The notes beneath the pieces were generated by a model. That model saw only the letters and a program-made list of their open reading frames with translations. It was not told where the DNA came from and searched no databases. Positions 1 through 40,199 of a stretch of DNA of 64,000 nucleotides are shown here, in pieces. Location of the stretch: assembly GCF_025630775.1 (NCBI RefSeq), contig NZ_JAOSZE010000011.1, forward strand, positions 124,001 to 188,000, written 5' to 3'. Made by a program: the position numbers and the translations under genes. Within the stretch, counting starts at the first letter, position 1. Every line of letters begins with the position of its first letter. The DNA comes from Actinoplanes sp. KI2. Lineage in GTDB: Bacteria; Actinomycetota; Actinomycetes; Mycobacteriales; Micromonosporaceae.

Positions 1-783
1 GCGGCCTGGGGCGGGCAGGTGACCCGGCAGGCGATCATCGGCCTCGCCATCTTCCTGGTCCTGGTGATGGCCTACCTGATCATCCGGTTCGAGTGGCGGA
101 TGGCGGCGGCCGCCGTCGCCTCGCTGCTGCTCGACCTGATCCTCACCGCGGGCGTCTACTCGCTGATCGGCTTCGAGGTCACACCGTCCACAGTGATCGG
201 CTTCCTGACCATCCTCGGGTACGCGCTGTACGACGTGGTCGTGGTGTTCGACAAGGTTCAGGAGAACACCCGCGGCATCACCGCCGGCAGCGTCCGGACG
301 TACGGCGAGGCCACCAACCTCGCGATCAACCAGACGCTGATGCGTTCGCTGAACACCGGTCTGGTGGCGCTCCTGCCGGTCGGCGGCCTGCTGTTCATCG
401 GCGCCGGCCTGCTCGGCGCGGGCACGCTGAAGGACCTCGGCCTGGTGCTGTTCGTCGGTATGGGCATCGGCGTCATCTCCTCGATCATGTTCGCGGCGCC
501 GCTGCTGACCGCGTTCAAGGACCGGGAGCCGAAGATCAAGGCGCACACCGCCCGGGTGCTGGCCCGCCGCGCCGGCGGCCGCTCCGGCGACGTCGCCGGC
601 CGCGGCGAGCGGCAGCCGAACGCCACCGCGTCGGACGAGGCGCCGGCCATGGCCTCGACGGGCACGTCGGCGCCGCGGCCGGGCAGCCGGCCGGCGTCGG
701 CCAAGCGCAGCTCCGGCACGAACCGCGGCGGCCGCCCCGGCGGCACCGGCAACCGCCCGGGCGGCGGCGCCAAGCGCCGGTGA
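1..783 (+). CDS. secF: SecF, protein translocase subunit (3' part)
   Basis: SecF partners SecD and SecYEG and uses the proton gradient to help complete protein export across the membrane. The reading frame is already open at base 1, so the N-terminus lies outside the window. What remains (260 residues) holds the C-terminal membrane half: hydrophobic helices with the RND/SecF pattern, including a GFLTILGYALYDVVVVFDKV stretch with the polar helix and conserved Asp typical of SecF, followed by further helices. The last 80 residues are a basic Ala/Gly/Arg-rich cytoplasmic tail, common in actinomycetes. secD should lie upstream. The gene ends just before a strong hairpin at 797-828. Identification is confident. 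Confidence 0.95.
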   Translation, partial: AAWGGQVTRQAIIGLAIFLVLVMAYLIIRFEWRMAAAAVASLLLDLILTAGVYSLIGFEVTPSTVIGFLTILGYALYDVVVVFDKVQENTRGITAGSVRTYGEATNLAINQTLMRSLNTGLVALLPVGGLLFIGAGLLGAGTLKDLGLVLFVGMGIGVISSIMFAAPLLTAFKDREPKIKAHTARVLARRAGGRSGDVAGRGERQPNATASDEAPAMASTGTSAPRPGSRPASAKRSSGTNRGGRPGGTGNRPGGGAKRR

Positions 784-796
784 TTGTCGATCCACG

Positions 797-828
797 ACGG
801 CCCGTCTCTCCGCGGAGAGGCGGGCCGT
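797..828. terminator. Hairpin between secF and apt
   Basis: A 16-bp stem with one G-U pair and almost no loop (arms around 797-812 and 813-828) starts 14 nt after the secF stop. A short pyrimidine run follows (TAGTCTTT), but there is no long T tract. It probably ends secDF transcripts and insulates apt, whose -10 element begins directly behind it. Confidence 0.65.
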
Positions 829-834
829 TAGTCT
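829..834 (+). promoter_or_regulatory. -10 element (TAGTCT), apt, leaderless
   Basis: TAGTCT sits 7 nt before the GTG of apt at 842 and no ribosome site is visible. In actinobacteria this spacing places the transcript start on the start codon. Confidence 0.5.
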
Positions 835-841
835 TTGCGCC

Positions 842-1396
842 GTGACTGATGAGACTCCCCGGGGCGACAGCGGGTCCGAGTTGGCCGCCGTCGTCGCGAA
901 CGGCACCATCGACGTTCCCGACTTCCCCCAGCCGGGCATCGTGTTCAAGGACCTGATGCCGCTGTTCGCCGACGGCGCGTCGTTCCGCCGGGTGGTCGAC
1001 GGGATCGTCGCGCACTACCCGGGCGGGTTCGACGTGGTGGCCGGGGTGGAGGCGCGCGGGTTCGTGGTGGCCGCCGCGGTCGCGTACGCCACCGGGACCG
1101 GCGTGGTGCCCGTACGGAAGGCCGGCAAGCTGCCGCGGAAAGCCCTCAGTGCCTCGTACGCGCTCGAGTACGGCGAGGCCACCCTCGAGGTGCACGAGGA
1201 CGCGTTCATCGCCGGCCAGCGGGTCCTGGTGGTCGACGACGTGCTGGCCACCGGCGGCACCGCCGGCGCGGCGATCGAGCTGGTCGAGCGGGCCGGCGGC
1301 ACGATCGCCGGCTTCACCGTGCTGATGGAGCTGGCCTTCCTCAACGGCCGGGAGCGGCTCGCGCCCCGTACCGTCCATGCATTGCTGACCGTTTGA
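842..1396 (+). CDS. apt: Adenine phosphoribosyltransferase
   Basis: Apt salvages adenine with PRPP to give AMP and pyrophosphate in the cytoplasm. The 184-residue length is normal. The PRPP-binding motif VLVVDDVLATGGTAGAA is near residues 123-139, and the N-terminal pattern DFPQPGIVFKDLMPLF is typical of the family, as is the VEARGF segment. The GTG at 842 has no ribosome site but follows a TAGTCT hexamer by 7 nt, so a leaderless message is likely. The order secDF-apt-rel is a standard actinobacterial arrangement and links nucleotide salvage to the (p)ppGpp gene that follows. Confidence 0.96.
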   Translation: MTDETPRGDSGSELAAVVANGTIDVPDFPQPGIVFKDLMPLFADGASFRRVVDGIVAHYPGGFDVVAGVEARGFVVAAAVAYATGTGVVPVRKAGKLPRKALSASYALEYGEATLEVHEDAFIAGQRVLVVDDVLATGGTAGAAIELVERAGGTIAGFTVLMELAFLNGRERLAPRTVHALLTV

Positions 1397-1560
1397 TCCC
1401 GTCTATCCGGTTAAGCGACCCTCTTTCGGAGATTCAGCCAGGCCATCGGGGAAGACCATGCGGGTAGGATGGCGTTCCTAACCAGGTGACAAATGGCATG
1501 AGCGGATCTCTCCGGCCGACGATGATCGGTGAGGTTCCAGGCGATGGTGTGAGGAGGCCG

Positions 1561-4098
1561 GTGTCCAGCGACGTCGCCCCTCCGGCGGAGGGCACGGTGC
1601 AGCCGACCGAAAACACACGGACCGGCGCGGACGCGGAGGCGCCGCCCGTCGAGGAGACACGCCCGGCCGATGAGGCGCCGGCCGCCACCGAGGCGGTCCC
1701 ACTCGCCGAGGCGGCCCAGCTCGCCGAGGCCGCCCAGCCCGCCGAGACGGCCCAGCCTCGCCCCGCCGTGCCGACCCCCGACCCGGATGTCACCCAGCCG
1801 CTGCCGCCCGGCGAGGAGCCCAGCACCGGGTTCGGCCTGGCCAGCGCGCCGACCGGCCGGCGGGTCCGGGCGCGGCTCGCCCGGTTCAACGCGCCGTGGC
1901 AGAGCACCCAGGTCAGTGAGGTGCTCGAGCCGCTGATCGCCACCCACCGGGCCAGCCACCCCAAGGCCGACGGCCGCCAGTTGCAGCGCGCCTTCGACGT
2001 GGCTGCCCGCTGGCACTCGGGCCAGTACCGCAAGTCCGGCGACCCGTACATCACCCACCCGCTCGCCGTCGCGACGATCCTCGCCAACCTCGGCATGGAC
2101 ACGACCACGCTGGTCGCCGCCCTGCTGCACGACACGATCGAGGACACCGACTACTCGCTCGACCAGATGCGCGCCGACTTCGGCGGCGAGGTCGCGCTGC
2201 TGGTCGACGGCGTGACCAAGCTCGACCGGGTCAAGCTGGGCGACGCGGCCAAGGCGGAGACGATCCGCAAGATGGTCGTGGCCATGGCGAAAGACCCGCG
2301 GGTGCTGGTCATCAAGCTGGCCGACCGGCTGCACAACATGCGTACGCTGACCTTCCTGCCCCGCCCCAAGCAGGAGCAGAAGGCCAAGGAGACGCTGGAG
2401 ATCCTCGCACCGCTGGCCCACCGCCTCGGTATGAACACGATCAAGTGGGAGCTCGAGGACCTCGCGTTCGGCACGCTGTTCCCCAAGCGGTTCGAGGAGA
2501 TCAACCGGCTGATCGGCGAGCACCAGCCGCAGCGTGAGGCGCTGCTGCGCCAGGTGACCAACAGGGTCTCGCTCGACCTGAAGTCCGCGAAGATCAAGGC
2601 GGAGACCACCGGCCGCCCGAAGCACCTGTACTCGATCTATCAGAAGATGATCGTGCGGGGCCGCGACTTCAACGACATCTACGACCTGGTCGGCGTGCGC
2701 ATCCTGGTCGACACGGTTCGCGACTGCTACGCCGCGCTGGGCGTCATCCACGCGAACTGGCAGCCGGTGCCGGGCCGGTTCAAGGACTACATCGCGATGC
2801 CGAAGTTCAACATGTACCAGTCGTTGCACACGACGGTCATCGGCCCGACCGGCAAGCCGGTCGAGATGCAGATCCGCACGTTCGCGATGCACCGTACGGC
2901 CGAGTTCGGCATCGCCGCGCACTGGAAGTACAAGGAGCAGAAGGGCGCGACGATCGTCGGGCCGCCGGCGCACATCGACGAGATGACCTGGCTGCGGCAG
3001 CTGCTCGACTGGCAGCGCGAGGCCAGCGACCCGTCCGAGTTCCTCGACGCGCTGCGCTTCGACCTGTCCAGCCAAGAGGTCTACGTCTTCACACCCAAGG
3101 GCGACGTGATCCCGCTGCCCACCGGATCGACGCCGGTCGACTTCGCGTACGCGGTGCACACCCAGGTCGGGCACAAGTGCATCGGCGCGCGGGTCAACGG
3201 CAAGCTCGTGCCGCTCGAGTCGACGCTCTCCAACGGCGACGTGATCGAGATCTTCACCTCGAAGTCGGCCACGGCCGGTCCGACGCAGGACTGGCTGGGC
3301 TTCGTGAAGAGCCCCCGGGCCCGTACGAAGATCCGGCAGTTCTTCAACAAGGAGCGTCGCGAGGAAGCGATCGAGATCGGCAAGGAGGCGATCGTCAAGG
3401 CGATGCGCAAGCAGGGCCTGCCCCTGCAGCGCATGCTGACCAGCGAAAACCTCACGACGATCGCGCGCGACCTGCACCTGGCCGACGTGGCCTCGCTGTA
3501 CGCGGCGGTGGGCGAGAACACCGTGTCGGCCCAGTCCGTGGTGCAGAAACTCGTGGCCGGCTTCGGCGGCGAGGAGGGCGCGGTCGAGGACATCGCCGAG
3601 ACCGCCGTCGCGACCCGGCCGCCGCGCAACCGCAGCACCGCGCAGGACCCCGGCGTCGTGGTCAAGGGCGTCAGCGACGTGTGGGTCAAACTGGCCCGCT
3701 GCTGCACCCCGGTGCCCGGCGACGCGGTGTTCGGCTTCGTCACCCGCTCCGGCGGCGTTTCGGTGCACCGCGAGGACTGCGCGAACGCGGAGGACCTGCG
3801 CGACCAGTCCGAGCGCGTGGTCGAGGTGAGCTGGAAGCCGACCAGCGCGTCGACCTTCCTGGTGGCGATCCAGGTGGAGGCGCTCGACCGGCACAAGCTG
3901 CTGGCCGACGTCACCCGGGTGCTCTCCGAGGAACGCGTCAACATCCTCTCGGCGACCGTGACGACCACGCGCGACCGGGTGGCGGTCAGCCGCTTCACGT
4001 TCGAGATGGCCGACCCGAAGCACCTGGGCCACCTGGTGGCAGCCGTCCGCAAGGTCGACGGCGTCTTCGACGCCTACCGGGTGACCTCGGGCGCGTAA
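1561..4098 (+). CDS. rel: Bifunctional (p)ppGpp synthetase/hydrolase
   Basis: This enzyme makes and breaks the stringent-response alarmone. The domains are in standard order: an acidic Pro/Ala-rich N-terminal tail (1-100), the HD hydrolase domain with intact H190-D191 and the ED pair in LLHDTIEDT, the synthetase domain with [13 protein letters not shown] near 351, a TGS domain from about 506, and a C-terminal ACT domain. The synthetase loop reads RFKD (406-409). RxKD is the signature of bifunctional Rel proteins, whereas synthetase-only RelA has an acidic ExDD. The GTG at 1561 follows GAGGAGG. An in-frame GTG at 1486 would add 25 residues and follows a TAGGAT hexamer, so the exact start is open. 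Downstream lies a hairpin at 4185-4205. Confidence 0.96.
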
Positions 4099-6693: not shown

Positions 6694-7377
<684 letters not shown>

Positions 7378-7383
7378 CGAAGT

Positions 7384-7462
7384 GAGCCTTGTTCACGACG
7401 GTGGAGATCACGTGCATGACTTGCGCTGATGTGGGGGTCAAGGTAGGTCGTGAACAAGACTC
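7384..7462. repeat. 16-bp inverted repeat in the hisS leader
   Basis: GAGCCTTGTTCACGAC at 7384-7399 is repeated in inverse orientation at 7447-7462 with a single mismatch, around a 47-nt spacer. The right arm ends 6 nt before the hisS ribosome site. It could form a leader hairpin in the hisS transcript or serve as two sites for a DNA-binding protein. No known regulator is recognised. Confidence 0.8.
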
Positions 7463-7481
7463 ATCCTAGGAGATTTTGAGA

Positions 7482-8792
7482 ATGCCGATTTCCGGCTTCC
7501 CCGAATGGCTGCCCGCGCAGCGCATCATCGAGCAACGCGTGATCGACCGGATCCGGTCGACCTTTGAGCTGTACGGGTTCGCGCCGCTGGAGACGCGGTC
7601 GGTCGAACCGCTGGAGACTCTGCTGAGCAAGGGGGAGACCTCCAAGGAGGTCTATCTGCTGCACCGCCTGCAGGGTGAGGCCGGCCCGTCCGCCGACGAT
7701 CAGCTGGGTCTGCACTTCGATCTGACCGTGCCGTTTGCCCGGTATGTCGTTGAAAACGCGGGAAAGCTGGTCTTCCCGTTCCGCCGGTATCAGATCCAGA
7801 AGGTCTGGCGGGGGGAGCGGCCGCAGGAGGGGCGCTACCGCGAGTTCCTGCAGGCCGACATCGATGTGGTCAATCGGGACAATTTGCCGTTCCACTACGA
7901 CACCGAGATGCCGCTGGTGATCGGGGACGCGCTCGCCGGGCTGCCCATCCCGGCCGCGCGGATCCAGGTCAACAACCGCAAGGTCTGTGAGGGGTTCTAC
8001 CGGGGGCTCGGCCTCGCGGACACCGACCAGGTCCTGCGTACGGTCGACAAATTGGACAAGATCGGCCCGGCGCGCGTTTCGGAGCTGCTGGTGGAAACCG
8101 CCGGCGCCTCGGCGTCGCAGGCGGCCGCGTGCCTGGACCTTGCCGCGATCTCCGCGGAGGACGGGTCCTTCGTGGACGCGGTCCGCAAGCTCGGGGTGAG
8201 TGACCCGCTGCTCGACGAGGGTCTCGAGGAGTTGGTCCGGGTGGTCGAGACCGCCCGCGAGCACGCGCCCGGCCTGGTCGCCGCCGAGCTCAAGATCGCT
8301 CGCGGCCTCGACTACTACACCGGAACCGTGTACGAGACCCAGCTGCGCGGTTATGAGCGGTTCGGGTCGGTCTGCTCGGGCGGCCGCTACGACAACCTGG
8401 CCTCCTCGGGCAAGGACCGTTTCCCCGGCGTCGGCATCTCGATCGGCGTCTCCCGGATGCTCGGCGTGCTCTTCGGCCAGCAGGCGCTGAGCGTGTCCCG
8501 CTCGGTGCCGACCTGCGTGCTGGTGGCGCTGCCGCACGAGGACCAGCGGGTGGCCTGCGACCGGATCGCCGCGGCGCTGCGCCGCCGCGGCATCCCCACC
8601 GAGGTGGCGCCGACCGCCGCGAAGTTCGGCAAGCAGATCCAGTACGCCGACCGGCGCGGCATTCCGTACGTGTGGTTCCCCGGCGAGCAGGACGAGGTCA
8701 AGGACATCCGCTCGGGCGCGCAGTCACCCGCCTCGGCGGACTCGTGGGCGCCGCCGGCCGAGGACCTGCACCCGGTCGTCTCAGGCGCGTGA
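7482..8792 (+). CDS. hisS: Histidyl-tRNA synthetase
   Basis: HisRS charges tRNA-His with histidine. The 436-residue protein shows class II motif 2 (RRYQIQKVWRGERPQEGRYREF), the histidine-specific segment LDYYTGTVYET and motif 3 (GVGISIGVSRML), then an anticodon-binding C-terminal domain. The ATG at 7482 follows AGGAGA by 8 nt. The leader holds a 16-bp inverted repeat. The 3' end overlaps the convergent amidase gene by 12 nt. Confidence 0.97.
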   Translation: MPISGFPEWLPAQRIIEQRVIDRIRSTFELYGFAPLETRSVEPLETLLSKGETSKEVYLLHRLQGEAGPSADDQLGLHFDLTVPFARYVVENAGKLVFPFRRYQIQKVWRGERPQEGRYREFLQADIDVVNRDNLPFHYDTEMPLVIGDALAGLPIPAARIQVNNRKVCEGFYRGLGLADTDQVLRTVDKLDKIGPARVSELLVETAGASASQAAACLDLAAISAEDGSFVDAVRKLGVSDPLLDEGLEELVRVVETAREHAPGLVAAELKIARGLDYYTGTVYETQLRGYERFGSVCSGGRYDNLASSGKDRFPGVGISIGVSRMLGVLFGQQALSVSRSVPTCVLVALPHEDQRVACDRIAAALRRRGIPTEVAPTAAKFGKQIQYADRRGIPYVWFPGEQDEVKDIRSGAQSPASADSWAPPAEDLHPVVSGA

Positions 8793-28248: not shown

Positions 28249-29481
28249 GTGACGCCGGAGGTCGCGCCGCGCCGGGCGTGGGCTGCTTTGATCGTGCTGT
28301 CGCTGGCCGCCTGCGCGTTCGTCTCGACCGAACTGCTGCCGATCGGCCTGCTCACCCTGATCGCCGACGACCTGCACCGGTCCCGCTCGCAGATCGGCCT
28401 GCTGGTCGGCGGGTACGCGATCGTCGTCGTTCTCACCTCGATCCCGCTGACCCTGCTCACCCAGCACATCCCGCGGCGCCGGCTGCTCGGCGCCACCCTG
28501 CTGCTGTTCGCCGTCGCCAACCTGGCCGGCGCGCTGGCCGGCACCTATGCCGTGCTGGCCGTCGCCCGGCTGGCCACCGCGCTCACCCAGGCGCTGTTCT
28601 GGTCGATCGTCGCCCCGGTGGCGAGCGGGCTGTTCCCGGTGGCCGTCCGCGGCCGGGTGGTGGGGCTGTTCGCGACCGGCCCGGCCCTGGCGCCGGTGCT
28701 CGGCGTCCCGCTGTGCACGTGGATCGGGCAGCAGGCCGGCTGGCGGGCCGCGTTCGCCTTCATGGCCGGGTTCGGCGTGCTCGCGACCGTCGCCGTGGTC
28801 GCGCTGATCCCGTCTTATCGGCCGAGCGCGGGCGGGGCGGCGCGCGGCACCGCCCCCGACCGGCGAGCGTTCCGGGCGCTGCTGACCGGGATCGCGATCG
28901 CGATCACCGGGTTCCTCACCTTCACCACGTACCTGACGGTGTTCCTGCTGGATGTCAGCGGCTTCGCCGAGTCGGCCCTGCCCGCGTTGCTGCTCGTCTC
29001 GGGGCTGGCCGGAACGGCCGGCGCGTTCGTGGTGTCCCGCACCCTCGATCCGCATCCGATCGGGACGCTGCTGGCGGCGCTCAGCGTCGGGGTGAGCTCG
29101 CTGACCGGCCTGTTCCTGCTGGGCCCGCGGCCGGCGGCGGCCGTGGTGCTGGTGGCCGGAAGCGGGTTTGCGTATGCGGCGTTCGCCACCAGCGTGCAGG
29201 GCCGGATGCTGGTGGTCGCGCCGGGGAGCACCGACCTGGCCTCGGCCGGGGTGAGCACCGCCTTCAACGCGGGCATCGCGGCCGGCTCGCTGCTCGGCGG
29301 CGCGCTGCTGCCGCAGCTCGGATCGCGGCCGCTGGCCCTGGTGGGCGCCCTGCTCACGGCGGTCGCCCTGGTCACCCTGGCAATGAACGGCCGGCGTCGG
29401 GGACCGGGTCAGGACCGCAGAGCTTGGGCCGCCCGGACCAGGGCGCTGTTGCTCGGCGCGATCGACCCGTCCGGCAGATAG
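28249..29481 (+). CDS. MFS transporter, sugar/drug efflux type
   Basis: A 410-residue protein with about 12 membrane helices. The N-terminal ELLPIGLLTLIADDL and the SQIGLLVGGYAIVVVL helix match the AraJ/SotB-like efflux group. The GTG follows GGAGGGAG by about 6 nt. The 3' end overlaps the convergent BKACE gene by 73 nt, so the last 24 codons are read on both strands. Substrate unknown. It lies 50 nt after the AEC gene on the same strand and may be co-transcribed. Confidence 0.88.
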   Translation: MTPEVAPRRAWAALIVLSLAACAFVSTELLPIGLLTLIADDLHRSRSQIGLLVGGYAIVVVLTSIPLTLLTQHIPRRRLLGATLLLFAVANLAGALAGTYAVLAVARLATALTQALFWSIVAPVASGLFPVAVRGRVVGLFATGPALAPVLGVPLCTWIGQQAGWRAAFAFMAGFGVLATVAVVALIPSYRPSAGGAARGTAPDRRAFRALLTGIAIAITGFLTFTTYLTVFLLDVSGFAESALPALLLVSGLAGTAGAFVVSRTLDPHPIGTLLAALSVGVSSLTGLFLLGPRPAAAVVLVAGSGFAYAAFATSVQGRMLVVAPGSTDLASAGVSTAFNAGIAAGSLLGGALLPQLGSRPLALVGALLTAVALVTLAMNGRRRGPGQDRRAWAARTRALLLGAIDPSGR

Positions 29482-30143
29482 ATCGAGTCCTCGAAGCCGA
29501 CCCGGGTGTCGTGCCCGCGCCGGAACGCGTCGGCCACCAGCGGCCACGTCCAGTCGCGCATGCCGTGGGTGAGCCGCGGGCAGGTCGAGCCTGCCTCGTC
29601 CAGGGCGTCGTTGACCTCCTGGGCGATCGCGGACGGCTCCCCGATCAGAAAGTACGGCTCGCCGGGATCGAGCTCGATGCTCACCCGCTGCGCCCGCGGC
29701 AGCAGGCCGGAGGCGAGCAGCGCCCGCATCTCGGCCGGCGCCCACAGCCCCACGTCGATGCCGATCCCGACGTCGAGCATCGCCGTCATGACCGACTCGA
29801 AGCCGGCCTCGGAGAGGTTGACCGTGGCGCAGTCGACGCCCTCCCACTCGCGGATCATCGCGATCCGCTCGGCCAGGCCGGGCACGATCCACTCGCCGGT
29901 GGTCAGCCCGATCTCGGCGGCGACCCCCTCCTCGGCGGCGAGCGCCCGCACCCAGCGGCAGGTCTCGTTCACGACTTCGGGCCGCAGGGTCTCCGCACCG
30001 GATTCATCCCGGACGTGCAGGTGTACGCCGGTCGCGCCGGCCCGGAAGCACTCCCGCAGCTCGGCCAGCACCTCGGTGAGCGAGATCGGCAGGTTCGGGT
30101 GGACGTCCTTGGTCCACGGCCCGTTCGGCGTCACCTGCAGCAT
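29409..30143 (-). CDS. BKACE-family beta-keto acid cleavage enzyme (DUF849)
   Basis: BKACE enzymes cleave a beta-keto acid with acetyl-CoA, as in lysine fermentation. The 244-residue protein has the zinc HxH pair in VHLHVRD, EIGLTTGEW, SIELDPGEPYF, and the third metal ligand in GFEDSIYLPDG. It is about 30 residues shorter than many members. It lies 3 nt after the RidA gene as the last gene of a three-gene minus-strand operon. The substrate is not predicted. Confidence 0.87.
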   Translation of the reverse strand: MLQVTPNGPWTKDVHPNLPISLTEVLAELRECFRAGATGVHLHVRDESGAETLRPEVVNETCRWVRALAAEEGVAAEIGLTTGEWIVPGLAERIAMIREWEGVDCATVNLSEAGFESVMTAMLDVGIGIDVGLWAPAEMRALLASGLLPRAQRVSIELDPGEPYFLIGEPSAIAQEVNDALDEAGSTCPRLTHGMRDWTWPLVADAFRRGHDTRVGFEDSIYLPDGSIAPSNSALVRAAQALRS

Positions 30144-30146
30144 GGG

Positions 30147-30524
30147 TCACCCCACGTAGAGGATGGCATCGATCTCGATGTCGAAACCGACCAGCGGGAC
30201 CGGGAGGGTCGTGCGTACCGGCAGATGGTCGCCCTTGATGTATTGCGGGTAGATCTCGTTGAGCTCGGCGAAGTCGTCGAAGTCGCGCAGGTAGACACCC
30301 ACCCGGACGGCGTCGTCGAGGCTCGCGCCGGCCGCCTCCGCGCAGGCCGCCAGGTTGCGGAACGCCGCGTGCGCCTGCTCGGCGAAGCTGCCGGTGACGC
30401 GGGTGCCGTCGGGGAGCGCGGGCACCGACCCGGCCAGGTAGATCGTGTCGCCGGCGATCACGGCGTGCGAGTAGGGGCCGCCGGCCGGGGCCGCCTTGTC
30501 GGCTTTGATCGCGCGCTTGGGCAT
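30147..30524 (-). CDS. RidA-family protein (reactive enamine/imine deaminase)
   Basis: A 125-residue RidA/YjgF protein. RidA members hydrolyse reactive enamines or imines released by PLP enzymes, or catalyse a step in a catabolic path. It has GPYSHAVIAGDTIYLAGSVP and RTTLPVPLVGFDIEIDAILY; the Arg that anchors the substrate carboxylate in RidA is in the VRTTL position and present. The final Glu (EID) is also retained. It sits one nt after the amidohydrolase stop and 3 nt before BKACE, so it probably serves the same catabolic route. Confidence 0.9.
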   Translation of the reverse strand: MPKRAIKADKAAPAGGPYSHAVIAGDTIYLAGSVPALPDGTRVTGSFAEQAHAAFRNLAACAEAAGASLDDAVRVGVYLRDFDDFAELNEIYPQYIKGDHLPVRTTLPVPLVGFDIEIDAILYVG

Positions 30525-30525
30525 G

Positions 30526-31731
30526 TCAGGGCCTCCGGTGCTCTCGTGGGAACTGGTCGTCCAGGCCGTCCGCGCCGACCAGCGGGGTGCCGAACAGGGC
30601 GCGGACGTCGCGGTCGCGGCGGGCCAGGGCCGCGCGTTGCGCGTCGGTGAGCGGGATCCACCCCGGTACGGGTGGCGGCAGCCTCGGCGGCAGTGCGCGT
30701 CCCCTGGCGTACGTCATCAGGTTTATCAGTCGCATGGGTGATCGTTTCGTGCGGAGGTGCGCGTCGGTCACCTCGAAGTCCTCGTGGCGCACCTCGAAGA
30801 CGGCGAGGTCGGCCGGTGCGCCGACGTCCAGGGTCCCGCCGGGAAGGCCGAGCGCTCGGGCCGGCCGGATCGTGACCGCCTCGACGACCTCGGCCAGCGG
30901 GAGGCCGCAGGCGAGCAGCTTCGCCATCGTGGTGGGCAGGTCGAACGCGGGCCCGTGCAGCGACCGGGCGTGCAGGTCGGTCGAGATCGTGGTCGGCCGG
31001 ATGCCGAGGTCCAGCTGCCGTTCGAGGATGTCGAAGGCGAACCCGCCCGAGCCGTGCCCGATGTCGAGCAGCACGCCGCGGTCGACGGCCGCGCGCAGCG
31101 CCGGGCCGAGCGGCGACGCCAGCCCGCTGGCGCAGTGCGTGACGATGTCGCCGGGGCGCAGCAGGTCGAGCACCTCGTCGACCGGCGGCGGCGGGACTCC
31201 GATGTGGACCATGACCGGGACTCCGGTTCGCTCGCCGGCCTCGAGCGCGCGGCGCAGCGGTTCCAGCCCGTTGTCGCCGACCGTCTCCCGATCCATCCGC
31301 ACCTTGATGCCGCGGATCGTGTCGCGGTGCCGCTGGATCGTGTCGACCGCCCGCGGAACGTCACAGTTGGCCAGGTCGCGGCACTCGCCGGTGCGCCCGG
31401 CCAGCCCGGTCGCCGCGATGTTGAGCAGCACGGCGACCCGCACGTCCGTCCGCTTCGTCCGCAGTGCGTCGAAGGTGTATGCGCCGGTCGTGCCCGCGTC
31501 GACCCAGGTCGTGACGCCGGTGTACCACGCGATCGGGTCGGGTTCGATGCCCCAGTAGCCCGGCCCGACGTGCGTGTGCAGATCGATCAGGCCCGGCGTG
31601 ACCAGGTGGCCGTCGAGGTCGACCACGGTGTGCGCGTCGCGGGGGAGACTCGAACCGGTTGCCGCGATCACGCCGTCGCGGACCGCGACGTCGACCGGGT
31701 CACCGCCGGTCAGCAGCAGGTCCCAGGTCAT
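30526..31731 (-). CDS. Amidohydrolase-superfamily deacetylase-like metalloenzyme
   Basis: A 401-residue amidohydrolase with the N-terminal HTH metal pair in TPGLIDLHTHVGPG, a central Lys (RGIKVRMD) in the place of the carboxylated lysine, histidines in VMVHIG and DIVTHCASG, and an Asp in ISTDLHARS. The pattern fits the group that includes the Agrobacterium Atu3266 and Enterococcus EF0837 enzymes, which deacetylate small N- or O-acyl acids. The real substrate is open. It leads the operon with RidA and BKACE, suggesting use of an acylated amino or keto acid; this is inference. Confidence 0.85.
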   Translation of the reverse strand: MTWDLLLTGGDPVDVAVRDGVIAATGSSLPRDAHTVVDLDGHLVTPGLIDLHTHVGPGYWGIEPDPIAWYTGVTTWVDAGTTGAYTFDALRTKRTDVRVAVLLNIAATGLAGRTGECRDLANCDVPRAVDTIQRHRDTIRGIKVRMDRETVGDNGLEPLRRALEAGERTGVPVMVHIGVPPPPVDEVLDLLRPGDIVTHCASGLASPLGPALRAAVDRGVLLDIGHGSGGFAFDILERQLDLGIRPTTISTDLHARSLHGPAFDLPTTMAKLLACGLPLAEVVEAVTIRPARALGLPGGTLDVGAPADLAVFEVRHEDFEVTDAHLRTKRSPMRLINLMTYARGRALPPRLPPPVPGWIPLTDAQRAALARRDRDVRALFGTPLVGADGLDDQFPREHRRP

Positions 31732-34356: not shown

Positions 34357-34968
34357 TCATCCGCTCCCGGTGACCGACGGGCCCTCGACGACCAGGGTCA
34401 CGCACTCCAGGAACAGGTCGTCGACCGTCCGGCCCGGTTTGAAGTACTCCGTGATTCCGGCGATCACCGTGGGGTAGGCCGCCGTGTAGGCGTCCAGATC
34501 GAAACCCTCGGTGTCCGGCGGCGGGGCCTGCTCCTCCAGGACGAAGCCGATCGTCACCCGCTCCACGGTCAGCACCATGACTCGTGCCTGGTGCAACGGC
34601 ACCCCACGGGCGACCAGCGTGCTCATCGCCAGCTCCGACAATGAGGCCATATTTCGGGACATCTGGGCAATCGAGATGATCCGGGCACCGTCCGGGTGCG
34701 CGAGCAGCGCCCGCCGCAGCCCGCCCGCGAACCCGATCAGCCAGTCCTGCCAGCGCTCGTCGGCGCCGATGGCCGAGGCCGGCAGCGGCGTCAGGATCTC
34801 CTCGGCGATGGCCGTGATCAGGGCCGCCTTGTTCGGGATGTGCCAGTACAGCGTCGGCGCCTGCACCCCCAGTCGCGAGGCCAGTTTGCGCAGCGTGACG
34901 CTGTCCAGGCCGTCGGCGTCGAGCAGGGCCACCGCCTCCGCGACGATCCGCGCACGATCCAGGGCCAC
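34357..34968 (-). CDS. TetR-class repressor
   Basis: A 203-residue repressor close in pattern to the true tetracycline repressors. Its helix-turn-helix reads VTLRKLASRLGVQAPTLYWHI. The recognition-helix core PTLYWH is identical to that of Tn10 TetR, and the C-terminal domain keeps LLAHPDGARI and the FVLEEQ segment. The GTG at 34968 follows TAGGGT by 7 nt on the minus strand and looks leaderless. Two 19-bp tetO-like operators lie between it and the divergent oxidoreductase and overlap this -10, so autoregulation is very likely. The natural inducer need not be tetracycline. Confidence 0.92.
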   Translation of the reverse strand: MALDRARIVAEAVALLDADGLDSVTLRKLASRLGVQAPTLYWHIPNKAALITAIAEEILTPLPASAIGADERWQDWLIGFAGGLRRALLAHPDGARIISIAQMSRNMASLSELAMSTLVARGVPLHQARVMVLTVERVTIGFVLEEQAPPPDTEGFDLDAYTAAYPTVIAGITEYFKPGRTVDDLFLECVTLVVEGPSVTGSG

Positions 34969-34975
34969 GCGCCGC

Positions 34976-35013
34976 ACCCTATCAGTGTTAGAGTCCTCTA
35001 ACGGTGTTAGAGA
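34976..35013. promoter_or_regulatory. Two adjacent 19-bp tetO-like operators
   Basis: The first (34976-34994) is ACCCTATCAGTGTTAGAGT and agrees with Tn10 tetO2 at 16 of 19 positions as recalled. The second (34995-35013) follows immediately and contains a perfect dyad CTCTAAC-GGT-GTTAGAG. They lie between divergent genes, as the two operators do in Tn10. The first overlaps the repressor's own -10 at 34976-34981. Confidence 0.8.
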
Positions 35014-35026
35014 CAGGGGAGGCGAC

Positions 35027-35968
35027 AGGAAGGCAGCGGTTCTGCACGAGCGCGACGGGGTCCCGCGGTACGAGGACTTTCCCGACCCGGTGGCCGGCGA
35101 GGGCGAGGTGCTCATCGAGGTCAAGGCCGTCGCGGTGGAGAACGTCGATCGCGCCGTCGCGGCCGGCACCCACTTCGCCGGGCGGGCGATGATGCCGGAG
35201 CTACCGGCCATCCCCTGCTTCGACGGCATCGGCACGCTGCCCGACGGCCGGCTGGTCGGCTTCGGCAACCCGCGGCCGCCCTACGGCGCGCTCGCCGAGC
35301 GCACCGTGATCCGCGAGGGCGCCTACGCGGCGATACCCGACGGCCTCGACCCCGCGGCGGCGACCGTCCTGCCCAGCGCGATCACCGCCATGTCCATGAA
35401 GGTCGCGGCCGGCCTGCAACCGGGCGAGTCGGTGCTGGTGCAGGGCGCCACCGGGGTCGCCGGCCGGCTGGCCGTGCAGGTGGCCCGGCTGCTCGGCGCC
35501 GGCCGGATCGTCGCCACCGGGCGGGACGACGAGCAGCTGCGCGAGCTCGGCGCCGACCAGGTGATCAATACCACCCTCGACGATCAAGACCTCCTTCTTG
35601 CGTACGCCGAGAGCCGCACCGATGTGGTCGTCGACTTCCTCTGGGGCCGGCCGACCGAGCTCCTGCTGCGCGCCATGGTCCCCGACACGTTCGCCTTCCC
35701 GGCACCGCTGCGGCTGGTGCAGATCGGCGAGGTGGCCGGCGCCGGCCTGCACCTCTCCGCCGAGAGCCTGCGCACCTCGGGCGTCGAGATCTACGGCGCC
35801 GCCAAGGGTCTCGGCCCCGAGACGATGGGCGCGGCCTACGGCCAGGTCGTCGAGTGGGCGCGGACCGGTCAGCTCACCTTCGCGCTCGAACGGGTGCCGC
35901 TCAGCGACATCGAGACGGCCTGGCAGCGCACAGATCTGCGCGGAAAGCGGCTCGTCGTGCAAGTCTGA
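35027..35968 (+). CDS. Zinc-independent quinone/alcohol oxidoreductase (MDR), apparent AGG start
   Basis: A medium-chain dehydrogenase/reductase of about 313 residues. It has an N-terminal GroES-like fold (VPRYEDFPDPVAGEGEVLIEV) and a Rossmann fold with VLVQGATGVAGRLAVQVARLLGA for NADPH. No zinc-site cysteines are seen. The usual family start, Met-Lys-Ala-Ala-Val-Leu, reads Arg-Lys-Ala-Ala-Val-Leu here because codon 35027 is AGG. A strong GGGGAGG lies 4 nt before it. The nearest in-frame normal start is GTG 34985, which lies inside the first operator. The gene is controlled by the divergent TetR. Confidence 0.8.
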   Translation, partial: RKAAVLHERDGVPRYEDFPDPVAGEGEVLIEVKAVAVENVDRAVAAGTHFAGRAMMPELPAIPCFDGIGTLPDGRLVGFGNPRPPYGALAERTVIREGAYAAIPDGLDPAAATVLPSAITAMSMKVAAGLQPGESVLVQGATGVAGRLAVQVARLLGAGRIVATGRDDEQLRELGADQVINTTLDDQDLLLAYAESRTDVVVDFLWGRPTELLLRAMVPDTFAFPAPLRLVQIGEVAGAGLHLSAESLRTSGVEIYGAAKGLGPETMGAAYGQVVEWARTGQLTFALERVPLSDIETAWQRTDLRGKRLVVQV

Positions 35969-36012: not shown

Positions 36013-37194
36013 GTGGACGTGCCGGAGCCGCGGGTCGACTGGCGCAGCAAGGGGTTCTTCCTGCCCGAGGGGGAGCGCACCGCCGCCGACTACGCCAAGG
36101 AGAAGCCGAGCCTGTTCGGCGGGGGCTTCACCTGGCCGGTGCTGGCGCTGCGACGGGAGGCGGCGTACGCGAACATCGCGACGATGGCCGCCTACTGCGC
36201 GCGGCACGGCTTCGACTTCGCGCCGCATGCCAAGACCACGATGGCGCCCGGCCTGATCGCGGCGCAGTTCGACGCGGGCGCCTGGGCAATGACGGTGGCC
36301 ACCCCGAACCAGGCGCTCGTGCTGCGCAAACTCGGCGCCGGCCGGATCCTGATCGCGAACGAGGTGCTCGATCCGGCCGCGCTGCGCTGGCTCGCCGCCC
36401 AGGACGACATCTACTTCCAGGTCGACTCGGCGGCGGCGGTGGCGGCCGCCGCGGCGATCGACACCGGACGCCTGCGGGTGTTCGTCGAGCTCGGTCATGC
36501 GGGTGGGCGCACGGGCGTACGTACGCTCGAAGCCTTGGAATCGGTGGCCCGCGCGGCGCAGGACGCGCCACGGCTGGAACTGGTCGGGGTGACCGCGTAC
36601 GAGGGCCAGCTGGCCACCCAGCGCGAGGTGGACGACTTCCTCGACCTGCTGGTGGCCGGGGTGGCCCGGCTGAGGGTCGCGGGGATCGGGTTCTCGCTGG
36701 TGTCGGCGGGTGGGAGCGCGTGGTTCGACCGGGTCGTCGATCGGCTGGCCGCGCTGCCGCGCGACCTGCGCCTGATCTTGCGCAGCGGGGCGTCGGTCAC
36801 CCACGACGACGGTTTCTATCGGGAACGTACGCCGTTCCGGCGGGTGCCGGCGGAGGGCCCGCTGACCGCCGCGCTCGAGATCTGGGCGCAGGTGCTCTCG
36901 ACGCCGGAGCCGGGCCTGGCGATCTGCGGGATGGGCAAGCGGGACGCGCCGTTCGACGAGGGGCTGCCGGTGCCGATCGAGGTCCGGCGCGGCGGGCGGA
37001 CGGTCGACGCGCCCGCCATGGCGGTGTCCAAACTGAACGATCACCACACCTACCTGGCGGCGGATGGGCTCCTTCCGGGCGACCTGATCCGGTTCGGGAT
37101 CTCGCATCCGTGCACCGCGTTCGACAAATGGCGGCACCTTCCGGTGGTCGACGAGGACCACCGAGTGGTGGACATCCTCGAGACGATCTTCTGA
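36013..37194 (+). CDS. PLP-dependent D-amino-acid enzyme (DSD1/D-threonine aldolase-like)
   Basis: A 393-residue type III fold PLP protein. Lys74 in FAPHAKTTMAPG should bind PLP, and His365 and Cys367 in SHPCTAFDKW match the metal site of D-threonine aldolase and eukaryotic-type D-serine dehydratase. Annotators often call these amino acid deaminases. It should act on a D-hydroxy-amino acid. The GTG at 36013 follows AGGGAG. It lies 44 nt after the oxidoreductase and may be part of the TetR regulon; a D-amino-acid detoxifying or catabolic unit is plausible but unproven. Confidence 0.88.
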   Translation: MDVPEPRVDWRSKGFFLPEGERTAADYAKEKPSLFGGGFTWPVLALRREAAYANIATMAAYCARHGFDFAPHAKTTMAPGLIAAQFDAGAWAMTVATPNQALVLRKLGAGRILIANEVLDPAALRWLAAQDDIYFQVDSAAAVAAAAAIDTGRLRVFVELGHAGGRTGVRTLEALESVARAAQDAPRLELVGVTAYEGQLATQREVDDFLDLLVAGVARLRVAGIGFSLVSAGGSAWFDRVVDRLAALPRDLRLILRSGASVTHDDGFYRERTPFRRVPAEGPLTAALEIWAQVLSTPEPGLAICGMGKRDAPFDEGLPVPIEVRRGGRTVDAPAMAVSKLNDHHTYLAADGLLPGDLIRFGISHPCTAFDKWRHLPVVDEDHRVVDILETIF

Positions 37195-38723: not shown

Positions 38724-40199
38724 ATGCGTAAATGGTGGCCACTGGTGACCGTGTGTCTCGGCACCTTCATGCTGCTCATCGACGTGACCATCGTGAACGT
38801 GGCGCTGCCGCAGATGGCCACCGACCTGAGCACCTCGTTCAACGCGCTGCAGTGGGTGGTCGACGGGTACGCCCTGGCCCTCGGCGTGCTGCTGCTCGGC
38901 GCCGGCGCGCTCAGCGACATGCACGGGCACCGCCGCTTCTACGTCGGCGGGCTGATCGTGTTCGCCCTGGCGTCGCTGGCCTGCGGGCTCGCCGCCGGTC
39001 CGGCGCTGCTGGTGACCGCCCGGGTCGTGCAGGGCGCCGGCGCGGCGGCCATGTTCACCACCACGTTCGCCCTGCTCAACAGCTCCTACCAGGGGCGCGA
39101 GCGGGGCGTCGCGTACGGGGTCTGGGGTGGGGTCTCCGGCGCCGCCACCGCGGTCGGCCCGATCATGGGCGGCCTGCTCACCGAGGCTTTCAGCTGGCGC
39201 TGGATCTTCCTGGTCAACCTGCCGATCTGCGTCGCCGCCGTGATCATGTGCTTCACCACGCTGCGCCACGACGGCGAGCGCCGCCCGGGCCGCTTCGACC
39301 TGTGGGGCACGCTGACCTTCACGGTCGCCGCCGGCGCGCTGACCTACGCCGTGATCCGGGCCAACGACGAGGGCTGGTCGTCGGCCAAGACCTGGGGCCT
39401 GTTCGTGGTCTCCGCGGTCGCGCTCGCCGCGTTCGTGCTGATCGAGTGGCGCACCGAGCGGCCGATGTTCGACCTGGGCCTGCTGCGCAGCCGCTCCTAC
39501 ACCGGCATCCTGATCGCCGGCCTGCTGGTCAACTTCGCGGCGTTCTCGGCCTTCACCTACACCTCGATCTGGCTGCAGTCGGTGCTCGGCCTGTCCCCGC
39601 TGCGGGCCGGACTGGTCGGCCTGCCCATGTCGGTGTGCGCGGCGCTGGCCTCCGGCATCGTGGGCGCCCGCCTGCACGGCCGCTCGCCGCGCCTGATCAT
39701 CGGCGTCGGCATGCTGCTGATCGGCGGCGGCAGCCTGCTGCTCGGCCTGCTCGTCGACGCGACCGCCGGCTGGCCGGCGCTGATGCCCGGCTACGTCGTG
39801 ATCGGCCTGGGCGTCGGCCTGGTCATGCCCACCCTGTCCTCCTCGGCGATGGCCGCGGTCCCGCTCCGCAGCGGCGGCATGGCGGCCGGTTCGCTGACCA
39901 CCGCCCGCCAGCTGGGCTTCGCGATCGGCGTCGCCGTCCTCGGCACCGTCTTCGCCTCCCGGGTCACCGCCCACCTGGGCTCCGCCACGGCCGGCCACGC
40001 GGTCGCCGGCGGCCAGGCCGCCCGCCTGGCCGGCACGGTCCCCGAGGCGGCGATCCACAGCGCCGCGGCCGCCGGCCTCGACGCCGGCTACCTGATCAGC
40101 GGCGCGGTCGGCATCCTCTGCGCGCTGGTGGTCTTCGCCCTGGTCCGCCCCACCACCCCGACCACCCCCGAGCCGTCCCGCGAGCCGGCGACCGTCTGA
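38724..40199 (+). CDS. MFS multidrug exporter, DHA2 (EmrB/QacA) type
   Basis: A 491-residue, 14-helix proton-linked exporter. The first helix has LLIDVTIVNVALPQM, the hallmark of the DHA2 group, followed by WVVDGYALALG and later the RVVQGAGAAAM motif. The ATG follows AAGGAAG. It probably exports a toxic compound or a product of the cell. It converges on the minus-strand gene at 40249 with a strong shared terminator. Confidence 0.92.
   Translation: MRKWWPLVTVCLGTFMLLIDVTIVNVALPQMATDLSTSFNALQWVVDGYALALGVLLLGAGALSDMHGHRRFYVGGLIVFALASLACGLAAGPALLVTARVVQGAGAAAMFTTTFALLNSSYQGRERGVAYGVWGGVSGAATAVGPIMGGLLTEAFSWRWIFLVNLPICVAAVIMCFTTLRHDGERRPGRFDLWGTLTFTVAAGALTYAVIRANDEGWSSAKTWGLFVVSAVALAAFVLIEWRTERPMFDLGLLRSRSYTGILIAGLLVNFAAFSAFTYTSIWLQSVLGLSPLRAGLVGLPMSVCAALASGIVGARLHGRSPRLIIGVGMLLIGGGSLLLGLLVDATAGWPALMPGYVVIGLGVGLVMPTLSSSAMAAVPLRSGGMAAGSLTTARQLGFAIGVAVLGTVFASRVTAHLGSATAGHAVAGGQAARLAGTVPEAAIHSAAAAGLDAGYLISGAVGILCALVVFALVRPTTPTTPEPSREPATV

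Follow-up and report, generated by a model that had tools for sequence, protein, structure and literature searches.

The window analyzed here, a 64,000-nucleotide stretch of the draft genome of Actinoplanes sp. KI2 (10.06 Mb, 201 contigs), contains a gene for a TetR-type repressor that faces a gene for an MDR oxidoreductase across two adjacent predicted operators of the tet class, O1 and O2 (Table 1). Judged from sequence, these two genes appear to form a conserved regulatory unit that is laid out like tetR-tetA and is not a tetracycline-resistance repressor system. It is very probable that O1 and O2 are bound by the repressor, which would thereby keep down both its own expression and that of the divergent oxidoreductase operon until a small molecule releases it. 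The features in the DNA that point to this are the two sites, their conservation, their specificity to the locus, the operators kept by detached copies of the oxidoreductase gene, and the loss of tetracycline-contact residues from the repressor. In the proposed mechanism, a dimer of the ligand-responsive repressor would occupy O1 and O2 and shut off its own gene and the divergent oxidoreductase operon. O1 would cover both outward promoters, since its arms appear to carry a -10 box for each direction, so that one dimer could silence both, and O2, one site further, would cover the region of the oxidoreductase transcript start. A small molecule, probably not a tetracycline, would release the repressor.

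A broader reading, in which chromosomal actinobacterial repressors use true tet operators for a signal other than tetracycline, switch operators by residue 38, and have a two-way core promoter in O1, is evenly balanced in our estimate. TetR-tetO is among the most used gene switches, and if this reading is true, the tet operator would be an old, general switch of which tetracycline resistance is one user; the Tn10 TetR would then be expected to bind at several of these loci, and repressors with Ala at position 38 to be poor at repression from tetO2. Where a natural operator is identical to tetO1 or tetO2 and the pocket of its repressor differs, the same DNA would come under a new ligand specificity, and tools built on Tet could encounter native sites in these actinobacteria. 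The residue 38 rule and the putative double-promoter O1 are the parts most worth testing, and the natural series of Gln, Ser, and Ala at position 38 makes the DNA recognition rule directly testable. Engineered changes in TetR from the Hillen laboratory (Baumeister et al. 1992; the 4C and 6C variants) are said to re-target the operator, as the changes at residue 38 would do here; the series described here is natural. In the literature searched, which mostly lay outside subscription papers, neither these operators nor a natural 38/+3 series turned up.

Table 1. Positions of the features at the repressor locus in the window
Feature	Position	Strand	Remarks
TetR-type repressor	34357..34968	-	GTG start 34968-34966; TetR_N + TetR_C_1
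Candidate -10 box TAGGGT, repressor gene, inside O1	34976..34981	-	Extended TGA-TAGGGT; inferred from orthologue pattern
Operator O1 (predicted) CCCTATCAGTGTTAGAG	34977..34993	.	16/19 to tetO2 as 19-mer 34976-34994
Candidate -10 box TAGAGT, oxidoreductase gene, inside O1	34989..34994	+	Extended TGT-TAGAGT; inferred from orthologue pattern
Operator O2 (predicted) CTCTAACGGTGTTAGAG	34996..35012	.	Perfect 7-3-7 dyad
RBS-like GGGGAGG	35016..35022	+	By-eye reading of sequence
MDR quinone-oxidoreductase-like protein	frame 35027..35968	+	First codon AGG, relatives ATG or GTG
D-serine-deaminase / D-threonine-aldolase-like PLP enzyme	36013..37194	+	44 bp 3' of oxidoreductase

The repressor locus and its paired operators

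A gap of 58 bp separates the repressor GTG (34966-34968) from the oxidoreductase frame (35027). The preliminary description had this gap made up almost wholly of two sites; both dyads are read directly in the sequence, and they fill 34 bp, so that the wording was generous. The match of the first site to Tn10 tetO2 and the perfect dyad in the second were confirmed as described. Both dyads carry C-2/G+2 plus TA at +4/+5, which defines the tetO class here. When up to 3 mismatches are allowed, the tetO2 19-mer matches nowhere in the window but at O1 (shuffles predict 0.01), and CTCTAAC-N3-GTTAGAG matches O1 and O2 only (0.34 expected); two such matches anywhere in a shuffled 64 kb occurred in 2 of 100 shuffles. 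In the whole genome, O2 is the only place within 1 mismatch of this motif, and the paired operator pattern matches this locus only.

Of the 354 genomes in the window's family, 48 (own genome included) have an orthologue of the repressor at an E value of ≤1e-40, as do 19 of 250 genomes in the family of G470 and 7 of 249 in that of G499; at ≤1e-30, orthologues are present in 6 of 394 genomes of a class-wide sample, own genome included. A contig scan for the repressor gave 22 loci, 17 of which (L032-L048) belong to genera that we take to be Streptosporangiaceae, and one orthologue lies on a Nocardia plasmid, adjoining a Tn3-family transposase. The search for the same operator pair upstream of orthologues, as suggested earlier, found at least two sites in 78 of the 82 distinct orthologue rows, one site in 1, and none in reach in 3 (L012, L048, and L099); in mononucleotide-shuffled upstream sequences, two sites occurred in 3 of 8,200. 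The operator centers are 18 to 21 bp apart in 65 of the 78 rows and widely spaced in the other 13. A repressor-blind scan for the pair had matches in 47 of the 354 genomes of the family; most fell at this locus and others at unrelated loci and one tandem repeat, and a reversed control of the pattern likewise matched a number of genomes. In viral contigs, two matches to the pair pattern with A at +3 were seen. Pairs of the CTAACGGTGTTAGGG type were seen in G134, G137, G259, and G312 (L132-L135), where tblastn found no relative of the window repressor in the 6.5 to 7 kb around them; perhaps these belong to a different tet-like operator system.

Seven exact copies of CTATCAGTGATAG are present in 5 of 8 genomes that contribute loci to the 22-locus contig scan set, all 7 within those loci. 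The operator position of L042 (Sphaerisporangium corydalis) holds the exact tetO2 19-mer (19/19), and that of L039 (Microbispora corallina) holds, on the other strand, an exact 19/19 copy of what we take to be the tetO1 sequence. As to the suggested bearing on the origin of tetracycline control, this shared operator language fits a common ancestry, and the direction is not shown by it.

The Tn10 tetR-tetO1/tetO2-tetA system (class B) and TetR(A) have the same divergent layout, two operators, and the same two protein domains, which the window repressor matches above the gathering cutoffs (PF00440, TetR_N, 42 bits against 24; PF02909, TetR_C_1, 39 bits against 21). In Tn10, the operator centers are about 30 bp apart, more than the 19 bp in the window. 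Unlike in Tn10, an MDR oxidoreductase faces the repressor and no divergent tetracycline efflux gene was found there; an EmrB-type MFS gene (38724-40199) lies on the oxidoreductase strand 3.7 kb further on. The PTLYWH motif that had been noticed in the recognition helix was found, and the repressor shares Arg28, Pro39, Leu41, Tyr42, Trp43, His44, Asn47, and Lys48 with the TetR(A) sequence, from which it differs in having Ala at position 38 and T at operator base +3. The best match among solved structures by sequence is SCO0253 of Streptomyces coelicolor (PDB 3fiw; E value, 4.9e-27), whose helix VEQPSLYWYF has Gln at 38 where the window has Ala, and tetracycline repressors are also among the solved relatives. 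An AlphaFold model built with 17 sequences was poor (pLDDT 63, pTM 0.49), and a Foldseek search with it, in which Tet repressors and engineered derivatives ranked at the top with listed query TM-scores of <0.5, added little.

In a study of TetR, the tetracycline contacts comprise H64, N82, F86, H100, T103, R104, Q116, and E147 (PMC8326586). By alignment with TetR(A), 1 of these 8, Glu147, is kept in the window repressor, six (Asn82, Phe86, His100, Thr103, Arg104, and Gln116) have given way to other residues, and the alignment is gapped at position 64. The DNA-reading half thus appears Tet-like and the pocket does not, and because a single contact residue is kept, the inducer is probably not tetracycline, which makes the earlier suggestion of a different inducer a likely one. 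It is very improbable that the repressor still senses tetracycline or a related aromatic polyketide that the oxidoreductase modifies. The exact tetO2 and tetO1 sites in two relatives, the retained Glu147, and the TetR model NF010319 as the best NCBIfam match (E value, 2.5e-40) would suit such a sensor; however, the score on that model is 138.5 bits against an equivalog cutoff of 265, and the positions altered or lost in the gap include His64, Asn82, and Phe86, which are rated most important for tetracycline binding in the same study (PMC8326586).

Residue 38 and operator base +3

In TetR, Gln38 hydrogen-bonds A+3 and Arg28 contacts G+2, and with the Q38A change the Kd for tetO rises from 51 nM to 433 nM, according to PMC7102968. 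Covariation, together with this contact, suggests that residue 38 (Ala here, TetR numbering) sets the operator base at +3 (T here). In the window, O2 has T at +3 in both halves, and O1 has A in the tetR-side half and T in the other. The pairing of Ala38 with T, Ser38 with A or C, and Gln38 with A holds in 79 of 79 orthologues (L012, L048, and L099 being left out of this count and of the orthologue tree) and, with exceptions, in paralogues. Rows in which half or more of the half-sites have T at +3 number 15 of 15 for Ala38, 0 of 60 for Ser38, and 0 of 4 for Gln38. By half-site, the Ala38 orthologues have T 50, A 5, and G 1, the Ser38 orthologues A 192, C 36, G 9, and T 1, and the Gln38 orthologues A 20; the tetR-side half of O1 departs from the rule in 5 of 14 Ala38 rows.

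The match is carried by few independent changes, and phylogeny limits the claim. It is rather unlikely, though by no means negligible, that the match reflects the shared ancestry of old subfamilies that kept both residue and base, and not a recognition rule. On the tree of the 79 orthologue rows, the operator needs two changes and the Ala38 label two, and on a thinned tree (41 of 79 rows) with residue 38 masked, four and four are needed. Across three trees, the third with 71 of the 121 rows that have a blind dyad (see below), 1 to 2 independent 38/+3 pairs fall on supported branches, and so no sign test can be significant. An AU test did not reject a grouping of L006 (Ala38, T+3) with the window's clade (P = 0.235), which suits shared ancestry; against it, L006 is 89% identical to the Ser38 row L056 and 67% identical to the window protein.

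As a held-out set, paralogues were used with 7-3-7 dyads that were found blind, with C-2/G+2 fixed and any base at +3. Such dyads were found in 121 of 160 rows, including 42 of 81 paralogues, and a further paralogue locus, L225, gave no match. The +3 bases are TT in 16 of 18 Ala38 paralogues (the exceptions, L184 with CC and L206 with GG, are both GC rich), CC or AC with no T in 10 of 10 Ser38 paralogues, two of whose dyads (L217 and L230) are likely chance, and AA in 4 of 4 Gln38 paralogues. Paralogues with Pro38 have TT in 6 of 7 and TA in 1, and Met, Asn, and Val are each represented by a single row. A scan for TANC-N3-GNTA, whose sites partly overlap the blind set, gave T/T in 13 of 14 Ala38 sites, A/A in 10 of 10 Gln38 sites, and C/C in 14 of 19 and A/C in 1 of 19 Ser38 sites. 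The remaining 4 of the 19 have T on one half (L029, L207, and L217, all three with TAACGTTGGTA, and L181, the last at one site), and L029, L207, and L217 have the recognition helix TSTALYWHV. These four and the Ala38 paralogue L025, which has C at +3 in one half, break the rule as shared ancestry would allow; the blind Ala38, Ser38, and Gln38 counts and the known contact of residue 38 with +3 (PMC7102968) speak for recognition instead. In a cluster test, 18 of 18 clusters agree (permutation P = 0.00045). The rule for Pro, Asn, Val, and Met was fixed after the rows had been viewed, and clusters 14 (L217 and L230) and 17 (L231) depend on probable chance dyads; for these reasons, the cluster evidence against shared ancestry is limited to Ala, Ser, and Gln, where 10 of 10 clusters follow the rule, although the dyad of one of the 10 is probably due to chance.

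TATC...GATA sites were seen with the Gln38 paralogues L013, L017, L022, L176, and L178. Of the 8 tetracycline-contact residues, 6 are retained in L013 and 4 in L176, and L013 faces a gene whose start resembles, by eye, that of a FAD monooxygenase.

O1 as a candidate divergent promoter

In the 65 tightly spaced rows, TANNNT is present on both strands of O1 in 65 of 65 and on both strands of O2 in 0 of 65, with one strand of O2 having it in 4 of 65. In all 65, an A before and a T after the 17-mer of O1 complete both hexamers, and a TG stands one base before both in 60 of 65; at O2, the same TG is present on both strands in 41 of 65 and the hexamers are absent. Both boxes are present at O1 in 2 of the 13 widely spaced rows. 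This pattern suggests that O1 is made of two back-to-back extended -10 boxes, and a scan of 34850-35150 for the sigma-70 consensus found no promoter. With the -10 consensus and a 7-bp spacing to the transcript start, tetR would start at about its GTG (34968) and be leaderless, and the oxidoreductase transcript would start at about 35001, inside O2. The double -10 boxes may also account for the CTATC that the window's clade retains in the tetR-side half of O1.

Alternatively, O1 might owe its conservation mainly to a role as divergent core promoter, and its likeness to tetO would then be partly promoter sequence. The hexamers on both strands in every tightly spaced row and the A...T flanks found at O1 only are what such a promoter would leave, but O2 keeps the same dyad without ever having both boxes, and the hexamers do not include the conserved inner C and G, which makes this explanation distinctly unlikely. 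An operator that also holds the two boxes is the preferred reading of O1.

AcrR is another TetR-family protein with a divergent target. Among E. coli bidirectional promoters that include acrA/acrR, AcrR lowers both divergent transcripts, and acrR and acrA share a -10 element with starts 10 to 23 bp apart (PMC12825309). In contrast, the window would have two back-to-back -10 boxes in O1, with starts about 33 bp apart.

Genes downstream of the operators

The oxidoreductase scores 33.7 bits on PF00107 against a gathering cutoff of 31.8 (MDR superfamily, quinone-oxidoreductase-like), with PF08240 and PF13602 below their cutoffs and no NCBIfam model at its cutoff. By tblastn at the repressor, 42 of the 82 orthologue rows have the oxidoreductase at full length in a single frame (coverage with the start codon ignored), 5 have it with a frameshift, and 10 have part of it; it was not found in 25, some of which are cut by contig ends or short flanks. 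In two genomes, it is detached from the repressor: in G020, a small ORF (see below) and the oxidoreductase lie ~0.89 Mb away from it, and in G136, the two genes are on different contigs. Both detached copies retain the operator pair directly upstream, and no orthologue of the window repressor was found in the 7 to 8 kb around them. Because of these copies, the oxidoreductase (operon) is the likely target of the operators, and the earlier claim that a tetR-tetA layout controls an MDR oxidoreductase here is likely to be correct. In G136 (L131), the far flank of the oxidoreductase has a gene (end of the 219-3152 frame) that resembles, by eye, another TetR-family regulator and could control the detached gene instead. 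At L131:4182-5519 in G136, the detached operators have the oxidoreductase on one side and an MFS-like gene (36.8 bits, cutoff 221), divergent from it, on the other, and an efflux-like gene may therefore share the switch there.

At 35027-35029, where the orthologues start, the window oxidoreductase has AGG and no ATG, GTG, or TTG, which the preliminary description had overlooked; the orthologues start with ATG in 49 rows and GTG in 4, and no start was found by motif in 28. The AGG may be a sequencing error in the draft assembly, the loss of the start, or a sign of an internal start (e.g., that of a 292-amino-acid frame). In G013 (L090, G013:C26:152000-168000, ~7280-7560), the C-terminal part of tetR directly adjoins that of the oxidoreductase, with both operators gone; the junction stretch contains no N, and the PLP enzyme of G013 is 92% identical to that of the window. 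The oxidoreductase of G102 has a frameshift. Given the AGG, this deletion, and this frameshift, the window oxidoreductase may be damaged, or the AGG may be a sequencing error. With this codon, and with 40 of 82 rows in which no full-length copy in a single frame was found next to the repressor (some of them cut by contig ends or short flanks), the gene may be dispensable, or the main target may be another.

Near the operators, 57 of 61 Ser38 rows have a small His-rich ORF, which in most Ser38 rows is the first gene, and in 27 of the 57, the oxidoreductase is partial or not found. An example in which it is the first gene after the operators is L036:2675-2920 (LLHRATHRIPGVPAH...RPPR.L.AWQ.RIA.LFG). 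The 43 stricter copies have 61 to 95 codons with about 14% His, and no family model was found at its cutoff for the examples tried. This protein might be the main product and the oxidoreductase a passenger, the window's clade having lost the former and now losing the latter. Those 27 rows, the AGG, the G102 frameshift, and the deletion in G013 through tetR, operators, and oxidoreductase would all fit, yet we hold it to be somewhat improbable: the detached oxidoreductase of G136 keeps its operators with no small ORF detected, the oxidoreductase directly follows the operators in the window's clade and in several outgroup Ala38 rows, and the differences of 0.23, 0.20, and 0.31 per codon position in the small ORF indicate weak coding constraint.

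The PLP enzyme behind the oxidoreductase resembles D-serine deaminase and D-threonine aldolase (3gwq; E value, 2.8e-61) and was earlier thought to be perhaps under the same control. As a general feature, such control was not supported: among the 49 distinct loci whose downstream sequence spans 2.4 kb or more, 5 have the enzyme in this place (the window, G013, G004/L031, G009, and G102; 34 more orthologue loci have too little downstream sequence for it to be judged), and in 3 of the 5, a gap of ~400 bp precedes its gene. In the window, it is possibly co-transcribed with the oxidoreductase. Elsewhere in the window, consecutive genes on the minus strand at 29409-31731 encode a beta-keto acid cleavage enzyme, a RidA-like protein, and an amidohydrolase, a row that is likely a catabolic operon.
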